In this document: piece after piece, positions 7,041-59,990 of the stretch
Layout: every line of letters begins with the position of its first letter
Numbering within the stretch: the first letter of the stretch is position 1
NCBI GenBank assembly: GCA_021787845.1
Contig: JAJYLH010000009.1
Coordinates: 1 to 64,000, forward strand
Reading direction: 5' to 3'
DNA from: Myxococcales bacterium
GTDB taxonomy: Bacteria > Myxococcota > Myxococcia > Myxococcales > JAJYLH01
Length of the DNA: 64,000 nucleotides
Notes under the pieces: generated by a model
The model's database searches: none
Told to the model about the DNA's origin: nothing
Seen by the model: the letters and a program-made list of their open reading frames with translations, nothing else
Translations under genes and position numbers: made by a program

Positions 7041-7195
7041 GCGAAGAACCGCTCGTCCTGAGCGCAGTCGAATGGCGAGTGGTTCTTCGCGGAGGCGCTC
7101 ATCCTTCGACTGCGCTCAGGATGAGCGGGAATCGTAAGCGTCTCAGGATGAGCGGGAATCGTAAGCGTCTCAGGATGAGGGGAAATCGCAGGCGC
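7041..7195. repeat. Dispersed repeat family A, intergenic copy with three 27-bp units
   Basis: A hairpin with arms gcgaagaacc (7041-7050) and ggttcttcgc (7081-7090) encloses the core gagcgcagtcgaa. It is followed by the reversed core tcgactgcgctcaggatgagcg and then exact tandem units whose ctcagg starts fall at 7115, 7142 and 7169 (27-bp period). It lies in the actC-actB gap. Confidence 0.85.
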
Positions 7196-7233: not shown

Positions 7234-10260
<3,027 letters not shown>

Positions 10261-11024: not shown

Positions 11025-11070
11025 GATCGGACCGATCGGTCGGATCCGACTGATCGGTCCGATCGCTCCG
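11025..11070. repeat. GATCGG-rich direct/inverted repeat, family C copy 1
   Basis: A run of gatcgg/ccgatc words about nine bases apart (gatcggaccgatcggtcgga and onward). Similar tracts occur at 47501-47549 and 59951-59990, each between genes. It fills the gap between the cupredoxin gene and actA. Confidence 0.75.
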
Positions 11071-41121: not shown

Positions 41122-41568
41122 CTAGCGCCGCTTCGAGTCCATGTCGCGGATCATCTGGACCCGGCGCTCGTGGCGCCCGCCCTCGAAGGTCGCGTCGAGG
41201 AACGCGTCCGCGATGGCGCAGGCGAGGTTCGGCCCGGTGATGCGCCCGCCGAGGCAGAGCACGTTCGCGTCGTTGTGCTCCCGAGCGAGCCGGGCGGACA
41301 GCTCGTTCTCGCACAGGGCCGCCCGCACGCCCAGCACCTTGTTGGCGGCGATGGACATCCCGATGCCGGTGCCGCAGACCAACAGGCCCAGATCGCCCGG
41401 CGAGAGCGCTACCGCCTCCCCGACCTCGCGGGCGTAGCGTGGGTAATCGGTCGACTCCGGCGTGTCGCAGCCGAGGTCCCGCACCTCGACGCCCTGCTGG
41501 CGGAGGTGATCGAGAACGATTCGCTTGAGCTCCAGCCCCGCGTGGTCCGAGCCGGCGATGACGGTCAT
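41122..41568 (-). CDS. rpiB: Ribose-5-phosphate isomerase B
   Basis: A 148-residue enzyme. It interconverts ribose-5-phosphate and ribulose-5-phosphate. The motifs are [10 protein letters not shown] at the start, the catalytic Cys in [15 protein letters not shown], and [23 protein letters not shown]. It precedes glyA on the same strand and is itself preceded by a family A repeat. Confidence 0.95.
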
Positions 41569-41624
41569 GGCTCACCTCGAACGCAGGCGCGCCGGCGGAC
41601 GCCTGCAAACGGCCCAGGGAGGTC

Positions 41625-41832
41625 AGAACCGCTCGTCCTGAGCGCCGTCAACGGGCGCGGGGTTCTCGCCGAAGCGCGCTCATCCTTCGACTGCGCTCAG
41701 GATGAGCGGGGTGGAAGCGCTCAGGATGAGCAAAGCGAAGTCGCTCGGGTTGAGCGAGGTGGAGTCGCTCGGGATGGGCGAGGTGGAGTCGCTCGGGATG
41801 AGCGAGGTGGAGTCGCTCGGGATGAGCGGCGG
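41625..41832. repeat. Dispersed repeat family A with six 24-bp units
   Basis: The element starts with a degraded hairpin (cagaaccgctcgtcctgagc) and the reversed core tcgactgcgctcaggatgagcg. Tandem units follow with ctc(a/g)gg at 41696, 41720, 41744, 41768, 41792 and 41816, an exact 24-bp period. It fills most of the gap between rpiB and the acyl carrier protein gene. No gene is seen in the stretch 41569-41871. Confidence 0.88.
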
Positions 41833-41871
41833 GAACGAGCCCAGGCGAGGGGAGTCGGGCGCGCATGGCGT

Positions 41872-42123
41872 TCACGCCGCCGGCTGGACGTGCCCCTTGA
41901 TGTAGTCCACCGCGTCCTTGACGGTCCGGATGGTCTCCGCGTCGTCGTCGGGGATGTCGATCTCGAACACCTCTTCGATGGCCATCACCAGCTCGACGAT
42001 GTCCAGGCTGTCGGCCCCCAGGTCCTCGATGAACGACGACTCGGCGTGAATCTCGGTTTCGCCCACGCCGAGCTGCTCGGCGATGATGCTCTTGACCTTC
42101 GCTTCGACGTTCTCGACCGGCAT
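41872..42123 (-). CDS. acpP: Acyl carrier protein
   Basis: An 83-residue acidic protein with the 4'-phosphopantetheine serine in [20 protein letters not shown]. It carries fatty-acyl intermediates. Two ATGs are possible (42123 and 42129); the first is preferred since an aaggag site lies nine bases upstream and the family usually begins close to VEAKVKSI. No fatty-acid synthesis genes are adjacent. Confidence 0.92.
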
Positions 42124-42226
42124 GCGCATGGACTCCTTCGACGAGCACTGTCGGGGCGCGGGGAATATCAGCCCTCGGGTTCCTTGCCAAGCGATTCGCA
42201 CCCCGAGGCGCCGCTCGCCGCGCAGA

Positions 42227-45166
42227 CTACACGACTCCGAGGCGGACGGATTCCTTGACGAGGCGCGTCGGAGCGCAGCCCACGAGCGATTGCACCACCT
42301 CGGCCGGCCGCGCCGTGCCCTCCTGCGTTTGCAGAATCTCCATCGTCAGAGCATCCGCGTCCCGAGCGAGCGCGCGCACGAACTTCTTGAGGTCGATTTC
42401 GCGGCGGTAGCCGTCGTAGGCGCGCTCGACCGGCCACGTGGGCGCGTGCGCGAAGCGGTCGAGGGCTTCGTCGACCCGAGCCACCGCGTCGGGCGCGAGC
42501 TGCGCGCGATAGACGACCGCGGCGCCGGCGGAGAGCGGCAGAGCAGGAGCGGCTTCGGCTGCCAGGACCGACAAGCCCGGCGGGAGCTCCGCCGCCAGGC
42601 GAGCCGCGATGTCGCGGGCGTCGTGATGACCGACGAGCGTCAACTCCATCAGCTCGGCCTGGCTCTCGATGCCCACCGGGAGCGCTGGCGAATAGGCGAG
42701 CTTCGGCTTGGGCGAGAAGCCCTGCGTGTACGCGACCGGCAGCTTCGCGCGGCGGATGGCCCGCTCGAGAGCGGTCTTGGTCTCCAGGTGGCTGAGCGCC
42801 CGCAGGCGGCCTTCTTTGGCGTAGGTCACGCGCACGATGGTGCGGTCGGCGTCGGTGGTGCTGGGGCTCTTGGTCGCGTTCGAGGAAGGCCCGGACCGCT
42901 CATCCTGAAGCCCGGACCGCTCATCCTGAAGCCCGGACCGCTCATCCTGAAGCCAGGACCGCTCATCCTGAAGCCCGGACCGCTCATCCTGAAGCCAGGA
43001 CCGCTCATCCTGAAGCCCGGACCGCTCATCCTGAGGCCCGGACCGCTCGTCCTGAGGCCAGGACCGCTCGTCCTGAGCGCAGTCGAAGGATGGGCGATCC
43101 TGGCCGGAGGGCGCGCTCGTGCCGCTGCTCCCGAGCGTCGTCGACGGGCTGCGATCGGGATGAGCGGATTGTCCGGCGCGGCCTGGGATGGGTGGGGTGG
43201 GGCGGAGCCCATCGACCGCGGCCGCCGATGGGCTCCGCTGCGCTTCACCCATCCTACCGAGCGGCACCACTTGTGCCTTGCGGTAGTCCTCCTGCCTGTA
43301 GACGCGGGTGTCGACCGCGAAGTAGTCGCACGCGCCGCAGGCCGAGCAGCGGTCGATCGCGCAGTCGACGACCTGCGCCTCTTCGACCGCCTTGCGGTTC
43401 TGCTTCCACAAATAGGGCTTGGTGACGTCGCAGTCGATGTGATCCCAGGGCAGCACCTCGTCGTCGCCCTTGCGGCGGTGGGCGAAGAAGGCGAGGTCGA
43501 CGCCGTGCTCGCGGAGCATGTCCGCTTCCGCTTGGTGCCAGGCGTCGAGGCGGAAGTGCTCGGTCCAGCTATCGAGCCGCTGCCCGCGCCGGAACGCGCC
43601 CAGCACCACCGTCGCCATCCGCCGGTCGCCGAGCGCCAGCGCGCCCTCGAGCGAGCTCTGCGTCGCGTCGTGCGGCCGCACCTTGAGGTTTCCGAAACCC
43701 CGCCCGAGCCTCCCGAGCTCCGCCCGGATGAGCGCGTGCTTGCGGCGCGTCTCTTCCAGCGGAATCATCGGCTCCCACTGGAACGGCGTGAACGGCTTGG
43801 GGACGAAGGTGGAGACGCCGACGTGGATCGCCGGGTTCTTCGCGTGCTTCTTGGCGAGCTGGAGCGCTTTCGCCGAGAGCTGCACGATGGCGCGGACGTC
43901 GGCATCGGACTCGGTGGGCAGGCCGATCATGAAGTAGAACTTCACGAGGCTCCAGCCCGACTGGAAGATCGATTCGACCGCGTCGAGCAGGTTCTCTTCC
44001 TTGTTGCCCTTGTTGATCACCCGGCGCATCCGCTCGGTCGCCGCCTCGGGCGCCACGGTGAAGCCGCTCTTCTTGACCCGCCGGATCTGCTCGGCGAGGC
44101 GGGCGTTCATCGTCTCGGTCCTGAGGCTCGGCAGCGAAATCGCCACCCGCTCGGGCGCGAAGCGGTCGAAGAAGTCCTCCAAGAGCCCGTTGATGCAGTC
44201 GTAGTCGCCGGCGGAGAGCGAGAGGAAGCCGACCTCCTCGTAGCCGGTGGCGGCGAGACCGCTCTCGGCGAGCTTGCGGACGTTGTCGGGCGAGCGCTGG
44301 CGCGTCGGGCGGGTGAGCATCCCGACCTGGCAGAAGCGGCAGCCGCGGGTGCAGCCGCGCTGGATTTCGATGGGCAGGCGGTCGTGAATCGTCTGCATGA
44401 ACGGCATCACCGGCCGCTCGGGCATCGGGACCGCGTTCAGGTCGGGCACCACCCGGCGGGTGATGCGCTCGTAGCCGGGCTTCAAGGGCTCGAGGGCGGC
44501 GAGGGTCCGGTCGGGCGCGTAGCGCGGGCGAAAGAGCGAAGGCACGTAGACGCCGTCGAGGTCGGAGAGCCGCCAGAGCAGGTCGCGCCGCGACTCGCCG
44601 GACACCTTCCAGTCGGCGACCACGTCGCTGATTTCGTGGACCGCCTCCTCGCCCTCGCCGATGACCAGCGCGTCGAAGAAGTCGGCGACGGGCTCCGGGT
44701 TGTAGGCGCAGGGGCCGCCGCCGAGGATGAGCGGGTCGTCGCGGCCGCGCTCCTTCGCGAAGAGCGGGATGCCCGCGAGGTCCAGCATCGCGAGGACCGT
44801 CGGGTAGCAGAGCTCGAACTGCATCGAGAAGCCGAGGACGTCGAAGGCCCGCGCCGGCAGCCGGTTTTCCAGCGAGAAGAGCGGGATGCTCCGACCGCGC
44901 ATCAAGGCTTCGAGGTCGACCCAGGGCATGAAGAACCGCTCGCAAGCGGTGTCGGGCCGGGCGTTGAGCGCGTGGTAGAGCGTGCGAAAGCCCACGTTGC
45001 TCATCCCAACCTCGTACGTGTCGGGGAACGCGAGGCCGAAGCGCACCCGCACCGCGCGCGGGTCCTTGACCACCGCGTTCAGCTCGCCGCCGAGATAGCG
45101 GGAGGGCTTCTGCACTTCGAGCAGCAGGTCGTCGATGCCGGCGATCGGTTCGAGCGCTTGTGCCAT
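42227..45166 (-). CDS. B12-binding-type radical SAM protein fused to DUF2344 (TIGR03960/TIGR03936)
   Basis: A 979-residue protein. The N-terminal cobalamin-binding-like region is followed by a radical SAM domain with CTRGCRFC (CxxxCxxC). The C-terminal DUF2344 domain begins [18 protein letters not shown]. This fused family is widespread and may modify RNA or protein; the substrate is not established. Oddity: between the two domains lie about 130 residues encoded by repeats, namely nine 7-residue units (S-x-x-Q-D-E-R) from a 21-bp family A array and a palindromic cassette, all in frame. The start at 45166 fits the family N-terminus. Confidence 0.9.
42893..43096. repeat. Family A array of nine 21-bp units inside a gene
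   Basis: ggaccgct recurs nine times from 42893 at exactly 21-bp spacing. It ends in the core cgctcgtcctgagcgcagtcgaagg. The units differ mainly at one or two bases (a/c before ggaccgct, a/g in cctgaag). It is translated on the minus strand as a 7-residue repeat in the linker of the TIGR03960-type protein. Confidence 0.9.
43186..43254. repeat. Imperfect palindromic element (cacccatcc type) inside a gene
   Basis: The left arm ggatgggtgg...cggagcccatcg and right arm cgatgggctccg...cacccatcc are inverted, with a few mismatches, around accgcggccgc. A half copy with the same cgctccacccatcctac end is at 638-665. It lies in frame in the same protein linker as the 21-bp array. Confidence 0.7.
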
Positions 45167-45558
45167 CGCCTCTCCGCGCGGGGACGTCCGCGGCGGGCGT
45201 TGTACGGGCCGGCGCGCGATCACGCAACCACGACCGGGCTGCTTCCAATAGCGGTACGACCGGCCTCCAACCGATGCTTGGCAGTGTGCGAGCGTCGGCG
45301 TTCGCGATGCGCGGGTGCCGACCGCTGGTTCGACGCAGACCGGACCGCTCGCGCTGCTGAGCACGAGGTACATCGAGTCTCGCAACCCTTCGCAGTCCGG
45401 AATTCCGGCCACGATTCGAGAAGCGGAAAGCGCCTTGGATCTGGCGCGCCGCATCGTCGAGCGCGCCGCGGTCTGCGGAGGAGCTGGATCGAGCGGACCC
45501 TGAAAATCGGTCGCCTGGCTTCCGATTTTCAAGGTCGCTGCGAACTGGAGAGCGTGCC
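45167..45558. other. Intergenic stretch, no gene seen
   Basis: A 392-bp gap between the sigma-54 activator gene end and the radical SAM gene start. It carries a hairpin near 45501-45531. A short open frame (45315-45503) has no ribosome site or recognisable family. Confidence 0.5.
45501..45531 (-). terminator. Terminator-like hairpin after the sigma-54 activator gene
   Basis: The arms tgaaaatcgg and ccgattttca are perfect over 10 bp, an AT-rich stem unlike its GC-rich surroundings. It lies 28 bp beyond the activator stop codon. There is no long T-run. Confidence 0.5.
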
Positions 45559-46668
45559 CTACGGCAGGCTCTCGGCGATGCGCGGGTCGACGATGCCGCA
45601 CTCCTTGATCTTGTAGAGCAAGGCCTTGTAGCTGATCTGCAGCTTCTGGGCGGCCTTGCGCTTGTTCCAGGCGCACCGTCGGAGCATGAACCCGATCGCC
45701 TCGCGCTCGGCGGCGACCTGGGCGCGGTGGGCGACGTCCTTGAGCGGCAGCTCGTCCTGCTCCGCGACCCAGAGGATGCCCAGCCGCTCCAAAGCGGCGG
45801 TGGCGGTCATCGTCGGCGGCGCGGCGATCACCGGCGTCGAGGTCGGCGCGCTCGACTCGATCGGCTTCGGGTCCTTCAGCTCGCCCACGATGCAGCGGAC
45901 GTCGCCCAGCACCACCATCCGGCGCACGAGGTTTTCCAGCTCGCGAACGTTGCCCGGCCAGGGGTAGCGGACGAACAGGTCCAGCACGTCGTCCGGCAGG
46001 ATGTCCAGCCCCGAGTCGTAGCGGCGGGCGTAGCGTTGGAGGAAGTGCTCGACGAGAATCGGGACGTCCTCCGGCCGCTCGCGCAAGGGCGGCACCCGGA
46101 CGCTGACCACGTTCAGCCGGTAGTAGAGGTCGCCGCGAAAGCCGCCGCGGGCGATTTCCACTTCCAGGTCGCGGTTGGTGGCGACGACGACGCGGGTGTC
46201 GACTCGAATCGGCTTGGTGCCGCCGACGCGGAAGTACTCTCCGTCCTGCAGCACCTGGAGCAGCTTCGCCTGCATCTCCGGCGGCATCTCCCCGATTTCG
46301 TCGAGGAACAGGGTGCCGTCGCTCGCGAGCTCGAACTTGCCCTTGGTGTCGTTCTGGGCGCCGGTGAAGGCGCCGCGCTGGTAGCCGAAGAGCTCGCTCT
46401 CCAAGAGGCTCGCTGGCAGCGCCGCGCAGTTGATTTTCAGGAACGGCTTGTGCGCCCGGGGGCTGCGCGCGTGGATGGTGCGCGCGACGACGTCCTTGCC
46501 GACCCCGCTCTCGCCGCGCACCAGGACCGGCACGTCCGTCGCCGCGACCCGATCGACCATCCGCCAGACCGCGTCCATCGCGCCCGACGCGGAGACGAAC
46601 TCCGGCGGCTGCCCATGGCTTGCGTCACCGTCGATTTCCACGCGCTCGACCGCCGAACCGGCACTCAT
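45559..46668 (-). CDS. Sigma-54 activator without receiver domain
   Basis: A 369-residue regulator. It begins almost directly with the AAA+ domain: Walker A GESGVGKD, GAFTGA loop in ELFGYQRGAFTGA, FLDEIGEMP. It ends in a Fis-type helix-turn-helix (CAWNKRKAAQKLQISYKALLYKI). With no receiver or GAF domain, its activity is probably controlled by another protein or constitutively active, as in PspF-like activators. A gggagaag site precedes the ATG at 46668. Confidence 0.9.
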   Translation of the reverse strand: MSAGSAVERVEIDGDASHGQPPEFVSASGAMDAVWRMVDRVAATDVPVLVRGESGVGKDVVARTIHARSPRAHKPFLKINCAALPASLLESELFGYQRGAFTGAQNDTKGKFELASDGTLFLDEIGEMPPEMQAKLLQVLQDGEYFRVGGTKPIRVDTRVVVATNRDLEVEIARGGFRGDLYYRLNVVSVRVPPLRERPEDVPILVEHFLQRYARRYDSGLDILPDDVLDLFVRYPWPGNVRELENLVRRMVVLGDVRCIVGELKDPKPIESSAPTSTPVIAAPPTMTATAALERLGILWVAEQDELPLKDVAHRAQVAAEREAIGFMLRRCAWNKRKAAQKLQISYKALLYKIKECGIVDPRIAESLP

Positions 46669-47500: not shown

Positions 47501-47549
47501 CAGACCGATCCGTCCGATCCGACCGATCGGTCTGATCGGTCTGATCGGC
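47501..47549. repeat. GATCGG-rich repeat, family C copy 2
   Basis: Repeated gaccgatc/gatcggtc words (cagaccgatccgtccgatcc and onward to gatcgg) fill the start of the gap between the two heptose genes. It is related to 11025-11070 and 59951-59990. Confidence 0.75.
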
Positions 47550-53326: not shown

Positions 53327-53469
53327 GTCGGCTCCTCCAGAAGCTCGCGCGAGCGATCTAGCAGACTTGCGGGCGCCAGGCTAAGGCGAGGCCGACCGCG
53401 ACCGCCGATGACGCCCCGCGGCAAGTCTCGGCCCGAGAGCGCCCGGCCTCGGGGCTCGAAGACGAGCGT

Positions 53470-53746
53470 TCGGCCCGAAGCGCTTCGACCTCGGGACTGG
53501 GAAACGAGTTTTCAACCCGAAGCGCTTCGACCCAAAGGTTGGGTACCCAACGTTCGACCCGAAGCGCTTCGACCTGAAGGTTGGGTACCCAACGTTCGAC
53601 CCGAAGCGCTTCGACCCGAAGGTTGGGTACCCAACGTTTGACCCGAAGCGATTCGACCTGAAGGTTGGGTACCCAACATTTGACCCGAAGCGCTTCGACC
53701 TGGAAACTGGGAAACGAGCCTTCGACCCGAAGCGCTTCGGGTCGAA
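53470..53746. repeat. 42-bp tandem array of alternating perfect palindromes
   Basis: cgaagcgcttcg recurs seven times, with the gcgctt start at 53481, 53522, 53564, 53606, 53648 (one base changed), 53690 and 53732, so the period is 41 then 42 bp. Between these lies ttgggtacccaa or a variant (53538-53549, 53580-53591 and two more). Both motifs are perfect 12-bp palindromes spaced about 21 bp, two helical turns. The outer units carry degenerate gggaaacgag in place of the second palindrome. Confidence 0.9.
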
Positions 53747-59877: not shown

Positions 59878-59950
59878 GGTTCCGGTCGTTGGCGTTTCCG
59901 GTCCGCCCTTCGACCTCGCCCGCACCGCGCGAGCGTCTCGCTCACCGCGC

Positions 59951-59990
59951 CGATCGGACCGATCGGACCGATCCGACCGATCGGTCCGAT
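59951..59990. repeat. GATCGG-rich repeat, family C copy 3
   Basis: cgatcggaccgatcggaccg and following words at about 9-bp spacing lie in the gap between the fusion gene and purE, like 11025-11070 and 47501-47549. Confidence 0.75.

Follow-up and report, generated by a model that had tools for sequence, protein, structure and literature searches.

The closest described systems are four. Intragenic REPs of the GTAG and CGTC superfamilies are short high-copy palindromes, most of them intergenic and most of them in inverted pairs, and a minority of them lie in frame in genes, where they encode 20-82 residues (PMC3733652). Rickettsia palindromic elements are about 150 bp long, are frequently located in genes and are tolerated in frame in unrelated genes (PMC10969869). 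REPINs are inverted REP pairs whose distances peak at 71 and 110 bp, and they are also found as tandem clusters which include flank sequence (PMC3116915). In Borgs, the arrays behind amino-acid tandem repeats are all divisible by three when they lie in genes and give disordered stretches, while other arrays are intergenic (PMC9879509).

Here we analyzed a window of 64,000 nucleotides from a Myxococcales bacterium (contig JAJYLH010000009.1), in which two dispersed palindromic families, termed A and B, are found in the linker of a conserved fusion protein. It is likely that both palindromes entered the seam between two domains in frame, that the 5′ arm of one was then tandem-duplicated and that the linker is mostly disordered filler.

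The gene of the fusion protein, identified by ORF and profile matches, occupies 42230-45166 on the minus strand and encodes a TIGR03960 B12-binding radical SAM domain, a linker and a TIGR03936/DUF2344 domain, with 979 residues counted from the ATG at 45166. It belongs to the TIGR03960-TIGR03936 fusions, since two families score above their cut-offs within one chain (708.9 bits against 462.3 for TIGR03960 and 160.7 bits against 71.9 for TIGR03936). The first match ends at about residue 614 and the second begins at about residue 778, which leaves a linker of about 163 residues with approximate ends (42836-43324, minus strand). The original prediction had placed two different repeat families within this one linker, both in frame, and this holds true: the array and palindrome B both lie between the two family matches, and the minus-strand ORF 42227-45676 is open across both of them. 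In the AlphaFold2 model residues 635-772 have pLDDT <50 and the array region appears as a low-confidence helix (residues 714-755), so the product of the array and palindrome B is most likely, as modelled, a disordered filler which itself has little or no function.

The tandem array was tracked by Tandem Repeats Finder at 42889-43076 (plus strand) with period 21, 95% matches, no indels, a score of 327 and 9.0 copies, the count of nine coming from one draft assembly in 153 contigs. Its 12-nt core occurs 32 times in the window when up to one mismatch is allowed, where shuffles average 1.1, and thus the array is not there by chance. The encoded peptide is (S-G/W-L/P-Q-D-E-R)n. It had been described as heptad-like, which is correct for the seven-residue period and goes no further, as only one of the seven positions is regularly hydrophobic and the pLDDT is low throughout. 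Nor is the array a free-standing repeat, as it had first appeared: the unit is the 5′ stem arm of a family A hairpin, the last unit is the arm of a complete hairpin at 43056-43105, and arm arrays are present at many other loci.

Three sites vary among the units when compared by eye, of which two alter the amino acid (Gly/Trp and Leu/Pro) and one is silent. Units 8 and 9, the nearest to the hairpin centre, share the core variant of the hairpin; the final base is G in units 7-9 and A in the others; and the fourth base runs C, A, C, A through units 3-6 (all by eye). This pattern agrees with an array which extended away from the hairpin and at least once gained two units together. The proposal that the array grew by slippage-type tandem duplication is rated the most likely route, arrays of the same kind recurring elsewhere in the genome both within and between genes. 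Folded alone as single-stranded DNA, the array gave no structure above shuffles.

The complete family A hairpin (43056-43105, plus strand, 50 nt; from folding and hairpin alignment), whose 5′ arm is the ninth unit, folds at -16.6 kcal/mol (z -3.7 against shuffles). Core matches place a decayed inverted partner core at 43155-43166 on the minus strand, as the second half of the usual inverted pair. In the 6.2-Mb genome the 5′-arm 13-mer of family A has 111 exact matches against 0 for the reversed control, and a 23-nt hairpin pattern with at most one mismatch has 191 against 0; family A is therefore a high-copy dispersed palindrome, as REPs and REPINs are. Canonical copies consist of two inverted cores whose starts are separated by 66-67 bp, and the 38 multi-hit clusters contain many plus-minus pairs at this spacing, as in REPs and REPINs, along with some unpaired copies. 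The outer stems differ in sequence and still pair: 7 or more of the 9 outer pairs form in 17 of 115 hairpins, among which 11 different left arms occur, where 1000 shuffles of the partners reached this in 2.1 hairpins on average and in 7 at most.

The placement of family A was sampled over 702 kb (the window, L039 and up to the first 20 kb of contigs 1-39 and 41), where a simple codon-based gene caller gave a coding share of about 0.79. Among the 32 clusters found there, 23 were intergenic, 7 lay inside predicted genes and 2 did so partly; set against the coding share, the element is tolerated in genes and under-represented in them. Beyond this genome, which has 191 matches, family A is present in six more of the 145 genomes of the order (123 in G074, then 19, 8, 4, 1 and 1), making 7/145, and with zero mismatches in 4 of 195 genomes of the phylum. 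It is also present in 3 of 15 genomes reached via the loci of other groups, all three records being named Scalindua or Brocadiaceae. The plasmids searched with the 88-nt element gave no match, and in the viral collection the exact core pattern was seen on eleven contigs (L221-L231), in several cases close to the contig end.

No conserved GTAG or CGTC tetranucleotide tag was found beside the 115 hairpins, only a C before and mostly a G after the core. Y1 transposases were searched in genomes G000 (this genome), G072, G074, G075 and G101, and no family A copy stood beside any of the three matches (two in G000 and one in G074), as would be expected of a RAYT. As no end tag and no adjoining tyrosine transposase turned up, family A is called REP-like here and is kept out of the GTAG/CGTC superfamily; it is possible that its transposase has diverged or been lost. 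One weak Y1 match lies in an ORF at about 1501-1716 of L002 (G000:C84:45805-49020). Repeats of a different palindrome family, translated as GHVSVRV and DTHVSGS, form the ends of that ORF, and the locus resembles a separate pair of REP and transposase.

The second palindrome, of family B, lies at 43186-43254 and was defined by inverted repeat search and folding. Its two 34-nt arms (43186-43219 and 43221-43254) are 79% complementary and 1 nt apart, and 43185-43256 folds as single-stranded DNA at -32.3 kcal/mol (z -6.4 against shuffles). Family B is also dispersed, with 75 matches of 73-100% identity over both strands of this genome, 40 of 223 first-look candidates having been scored. In 13 places it was intergenic ten times, partly in a gene twice and inside a gene once. 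The Rfam search over 41400-45700 gave no family at cut-off and only miRNA models far below it, four of the five on palindrome B.

The corresponding linkers were then compared in relatives from outside this bacterium's own family. The insertion is missing from 18 of 18 aligned relatives, which came from a contig search. The linker was measured from the C-x-x-C-G-x-C motif to the second domain, which could be done at 27 of 36 loci of Myxococcales relatives, representing 26 distinct genomes as L038 duplicates L029; the motif was unmatched at the other nine, among them L016, the window's own locus. It has 31-35 residues in 24 of the 26 genomes, and 44 and 70 in the remaining two. A fixed unit number in distant relatives would have pointed to a selected protein domain, and these short linkers speak against any such fixed domain. 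From D614 to R779 there are 165 residues in the window protein and 34 in a relative such as L044; the excess of 131 residues corresponds to 393 bp, of which the 371 bp of 42889-43259, running from where the array starts to where the query used for family B ends, make up about 94%. Three Clostridia have the two domains as separate overlapping ORFs, each above its own family cut-off. Together with the short linkers, this places the insertion where two units join, in a weakly constrained, Pro-rich stretch.

Because the repeats make up nearly all of the excess, the linkers of relatives are short and the Clostridia keep separate genes, the insertion is DNA of a drifting or selfish kind, which the domain seam tolerates and which tandem duplication has made longer; it is not a conserved domain. 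The order of events may be reconstructed as follows. Two dispersed palindromic elements would have been inserted in frame at a permissive Pro-rich seam between domains which are separate in some lineages. Thereafter the 21-bp 5′ arm may have been tandemly duplicated by replication slippage or template switching at the hairpin, running outward from it with at least one step of two units, and only the in-frame products would have survived.

Three other explanations were weighed against this one. The heptad array could be a part of the protein under selection, either a coiled coil or a linker for binding, which tunes the distance or contacts of the domains, with the palindromes as raw material only. 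Its exact seven-residue period, the Leu in most units and the low-confidence helix at 714-755 would fit such a module, but the array is absent in all the aligned relatives, two of its three variable sites change the amino acid, the linker is modelled with very low pLDDT and the same DNA core is arrayed between genes too, which together make selection for a module very unlikely. A role at the level of RNA or DNA, in which the hairpins are kept at the fusion gene for mRNA stability, attenuation or protein binding, would draw on the strong hairpins and on the pairing of differing outer stems beyond chance. Against it, the array shows no more structure than its shuffles, none of the Rfam families scores at its cut-off here, and family A is rarer in genes than the coding share predicts (7/32 against about 0.79); we regard such a role as very unlikely.

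Arrays are hard to assemble from short reads, and the genome is a draft of metagenome type divided into many contigs, so the array number or even the in-frame join might be an artefact of assembly. The three variable sites give anchors between the units and arrays of the same kind stand on many contigs, and an artefact is accordingly the most improbable of these explanations. Tandem duplication of the arm of a tolerated palindrome thus remains the preferred reading, and the other arm arrays of the genome bear on how it may proceed.

The 18 core-bearing arrays which were printed all have the form (5′ arm + spacer)n followed by one hairpin. Their spacers range from about 5 to 33 nt, most commonly 12 nt, and are near-identical within most arrays and different between most. 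A CRISPR-like array was also considered and dropped, as there are no variable spacers within an array. The 18 arrays had been picked by their 5′-arm motif, and because of that choice a symmetric test was made, in which the 60 nt upstream of each complete hairpin were searched for copies of its 5′ arm and the 60 nt downstream for copies of its 3′ arm. Hairpins less than 75 bp from a stretch end were excluded, and so were 3 of 179 that were nearly identical to others. Arm copies on the 5′ and 3′ sides numbered 9 against 1 in stretches of this genome chosen by contig and position (n=49 hairpins), 13 against 1 in stretches around core matches (n=64) and 8 against 0 in G074 in stretches around hairpin matches (n=63). 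The total is 30 against 2 (30/32; sign test 2.5e-07), where some cases depend on one another: a single duplicated region (L139) provides two of the nine, and several of those in G074 belong to a longer subfamily. For this genome alone, with L139 counted once, it is 21 against 2. The two hairpins with a downstream 3′-arm copy appear by eye to have the inverted partner REP there, and they were still counted. A looser test, now superseded, gave 10 against 1, 17 against 0 and 11 against 0; it also gave 36 same-strand 5′-arm matches downstream, most probably the inverted partner picked up by the loose pattern.

By folding, the 15-mer of the 5′ arm forms a small perfect hairpin on its own, which the 3′ arm does not, and this self-folding is a possible cause of the one-sidedness. 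Part of the 15-mer hairpin is lost in the units of 42889-43076, which makes the whole 21-bp arm the likelier slippage unit there. In some 24-bp cases (L161, L175 and L197) the extra unit lies between the outer stem and the core and its spacer is absent from the flank, a pattern which plain slippage or simple duplication leaves unexplained.

The window holds further family A 5′-arm arrays at 7050-7188 (period 27), 8922-8997 (period 24, inside a predicted gene) and 41625-41828 (period 24), each of which ends in a complete hairpin. At L189:1484-1640, 5.7 identical 24-bp units stand directly before an ORF which by eye resembles the start of an Era-type GTPase, and the hairpin supplies a possible ATG of this Era-like ORF. 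At L179:1501-1620 a 24-bp family A array follows a stretch which by eye resembles a lipoprotein signal sequence, and it is open in frame. Limited term searches of the open-licence literature found no paper on one-arm amplification, and the papers which matched family A motif strings were, by title, all on other subjects.

The periods of the arrays were surveyed over 1.03 Mb of this genome, where Tandem Repeats Finder gave 61 arrays with a score of at least 100. The period is divisible by three in 24 of 24 in-gene arrays and in 16 of 34 intergenic ones. Of the latter, 21/34 lie within 1 bp of a multiple of 21 bp, against 3/21 by chance (p = 2.5e-10), with periods mostly of 21, 22, 41, 42, 43, 62 and 63; two such intergenic arrays of the window are 124-269 (43 bp) and 53428-53739 (42 bp). 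The 24 arrays near these multiples with periods up to 64 bp, in genes and between them, form 21 clusters of unrelated units. A mere coding effect was dropped as the source of period 21, since intergenic arrays share it, and this suggests that the period of 42889-43076 was set by more than the reading frame. Two turns of B-DNA span 21 bp. In-gene arrays of this genome alone show no 21-bp preference (4/24). Those of G011 and G033 are often near such multiples (4/10 and 6/10), and 42-bp coding repeats are therefore no peculiarity of this genome. The sampled stretches of three other Myxococcales genomes held only 3, 1 and 1 intergenic arrays, too few for comparison. A further dispersed family, with 9-bp (18-bp) arrays of the CCGATCGGT type, occurs in the window at 11025-11065, 47505-47548 and 59950-59990 and at many other loci of the genome.

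The insertion itself is ordinary, and the one-sided amplification of an arm and the 21-bp step are the parts which deserve a second look. A single array-making process may be imagined, in which the 5′ arm of a REP-like hairpin seeds each short tandem array, growth is outward and confined to that side, and the periods come in steps of about 21 bp; it would produce intergenic arrays and, where the steps are multiples of three, disordered peptide repeats in working proteins; we offer this tentatively and hold it to be rather doubtful. With this polarity and the 21-bp step, the origin of such arrays would become testable in a single genome that offers many examples. The locus shows in a concrete case how a scattered DNA palindrome can become a long disordered linker of a conserved enzyme, by insertion at a seam and then amplification of one arm. 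It also calls for caution: where predicted proteins contain QDER-, HPERS- or SAVEG-like repeats, these can be translated DNA elements.

Set beside the known systems, family A is like the intragenic REPs of PMC3733652 in being short, high-copy, mostly intergenic, paired and sometimes in frame in genes. It differs from the GTAG and CGTC elements there in having no such flank tag and no adjoining tyrosine transposase that we could find, and one stem arm is amplified here rather than the whole REP. As with the Rickettsia palindromic elements (PMC10969869), there is in-frame insertion in genes, seen in the fusion gene and in the clusters inside predicted genes (7/32); unlike them, family A is mainly intergenic (23/32 clusters) and seeds tandem arrays. 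It shares with REPINs (PMC3116915) the inverted pairs, at a fixed distance of about 67 bp between core starts, and the tandem clusters, whereas the whole REPIN is repeated there and only the 5′ arm of one hairpin is repeated here, with no RAYT found nearby. The in-gene arrays of this genome are all divisible by three with others intergenic, as in Borgs (PMC9879509), and the linker is likewise predicted to be disordered, although the array here is seeded at a dispersed palindrome and lies on a bacterial chromosome. The locus is thus of a known kind, that of intragenic REPs and Rickettsia palindromic elements, and the one-sided amplification of an arm is a variant of it.
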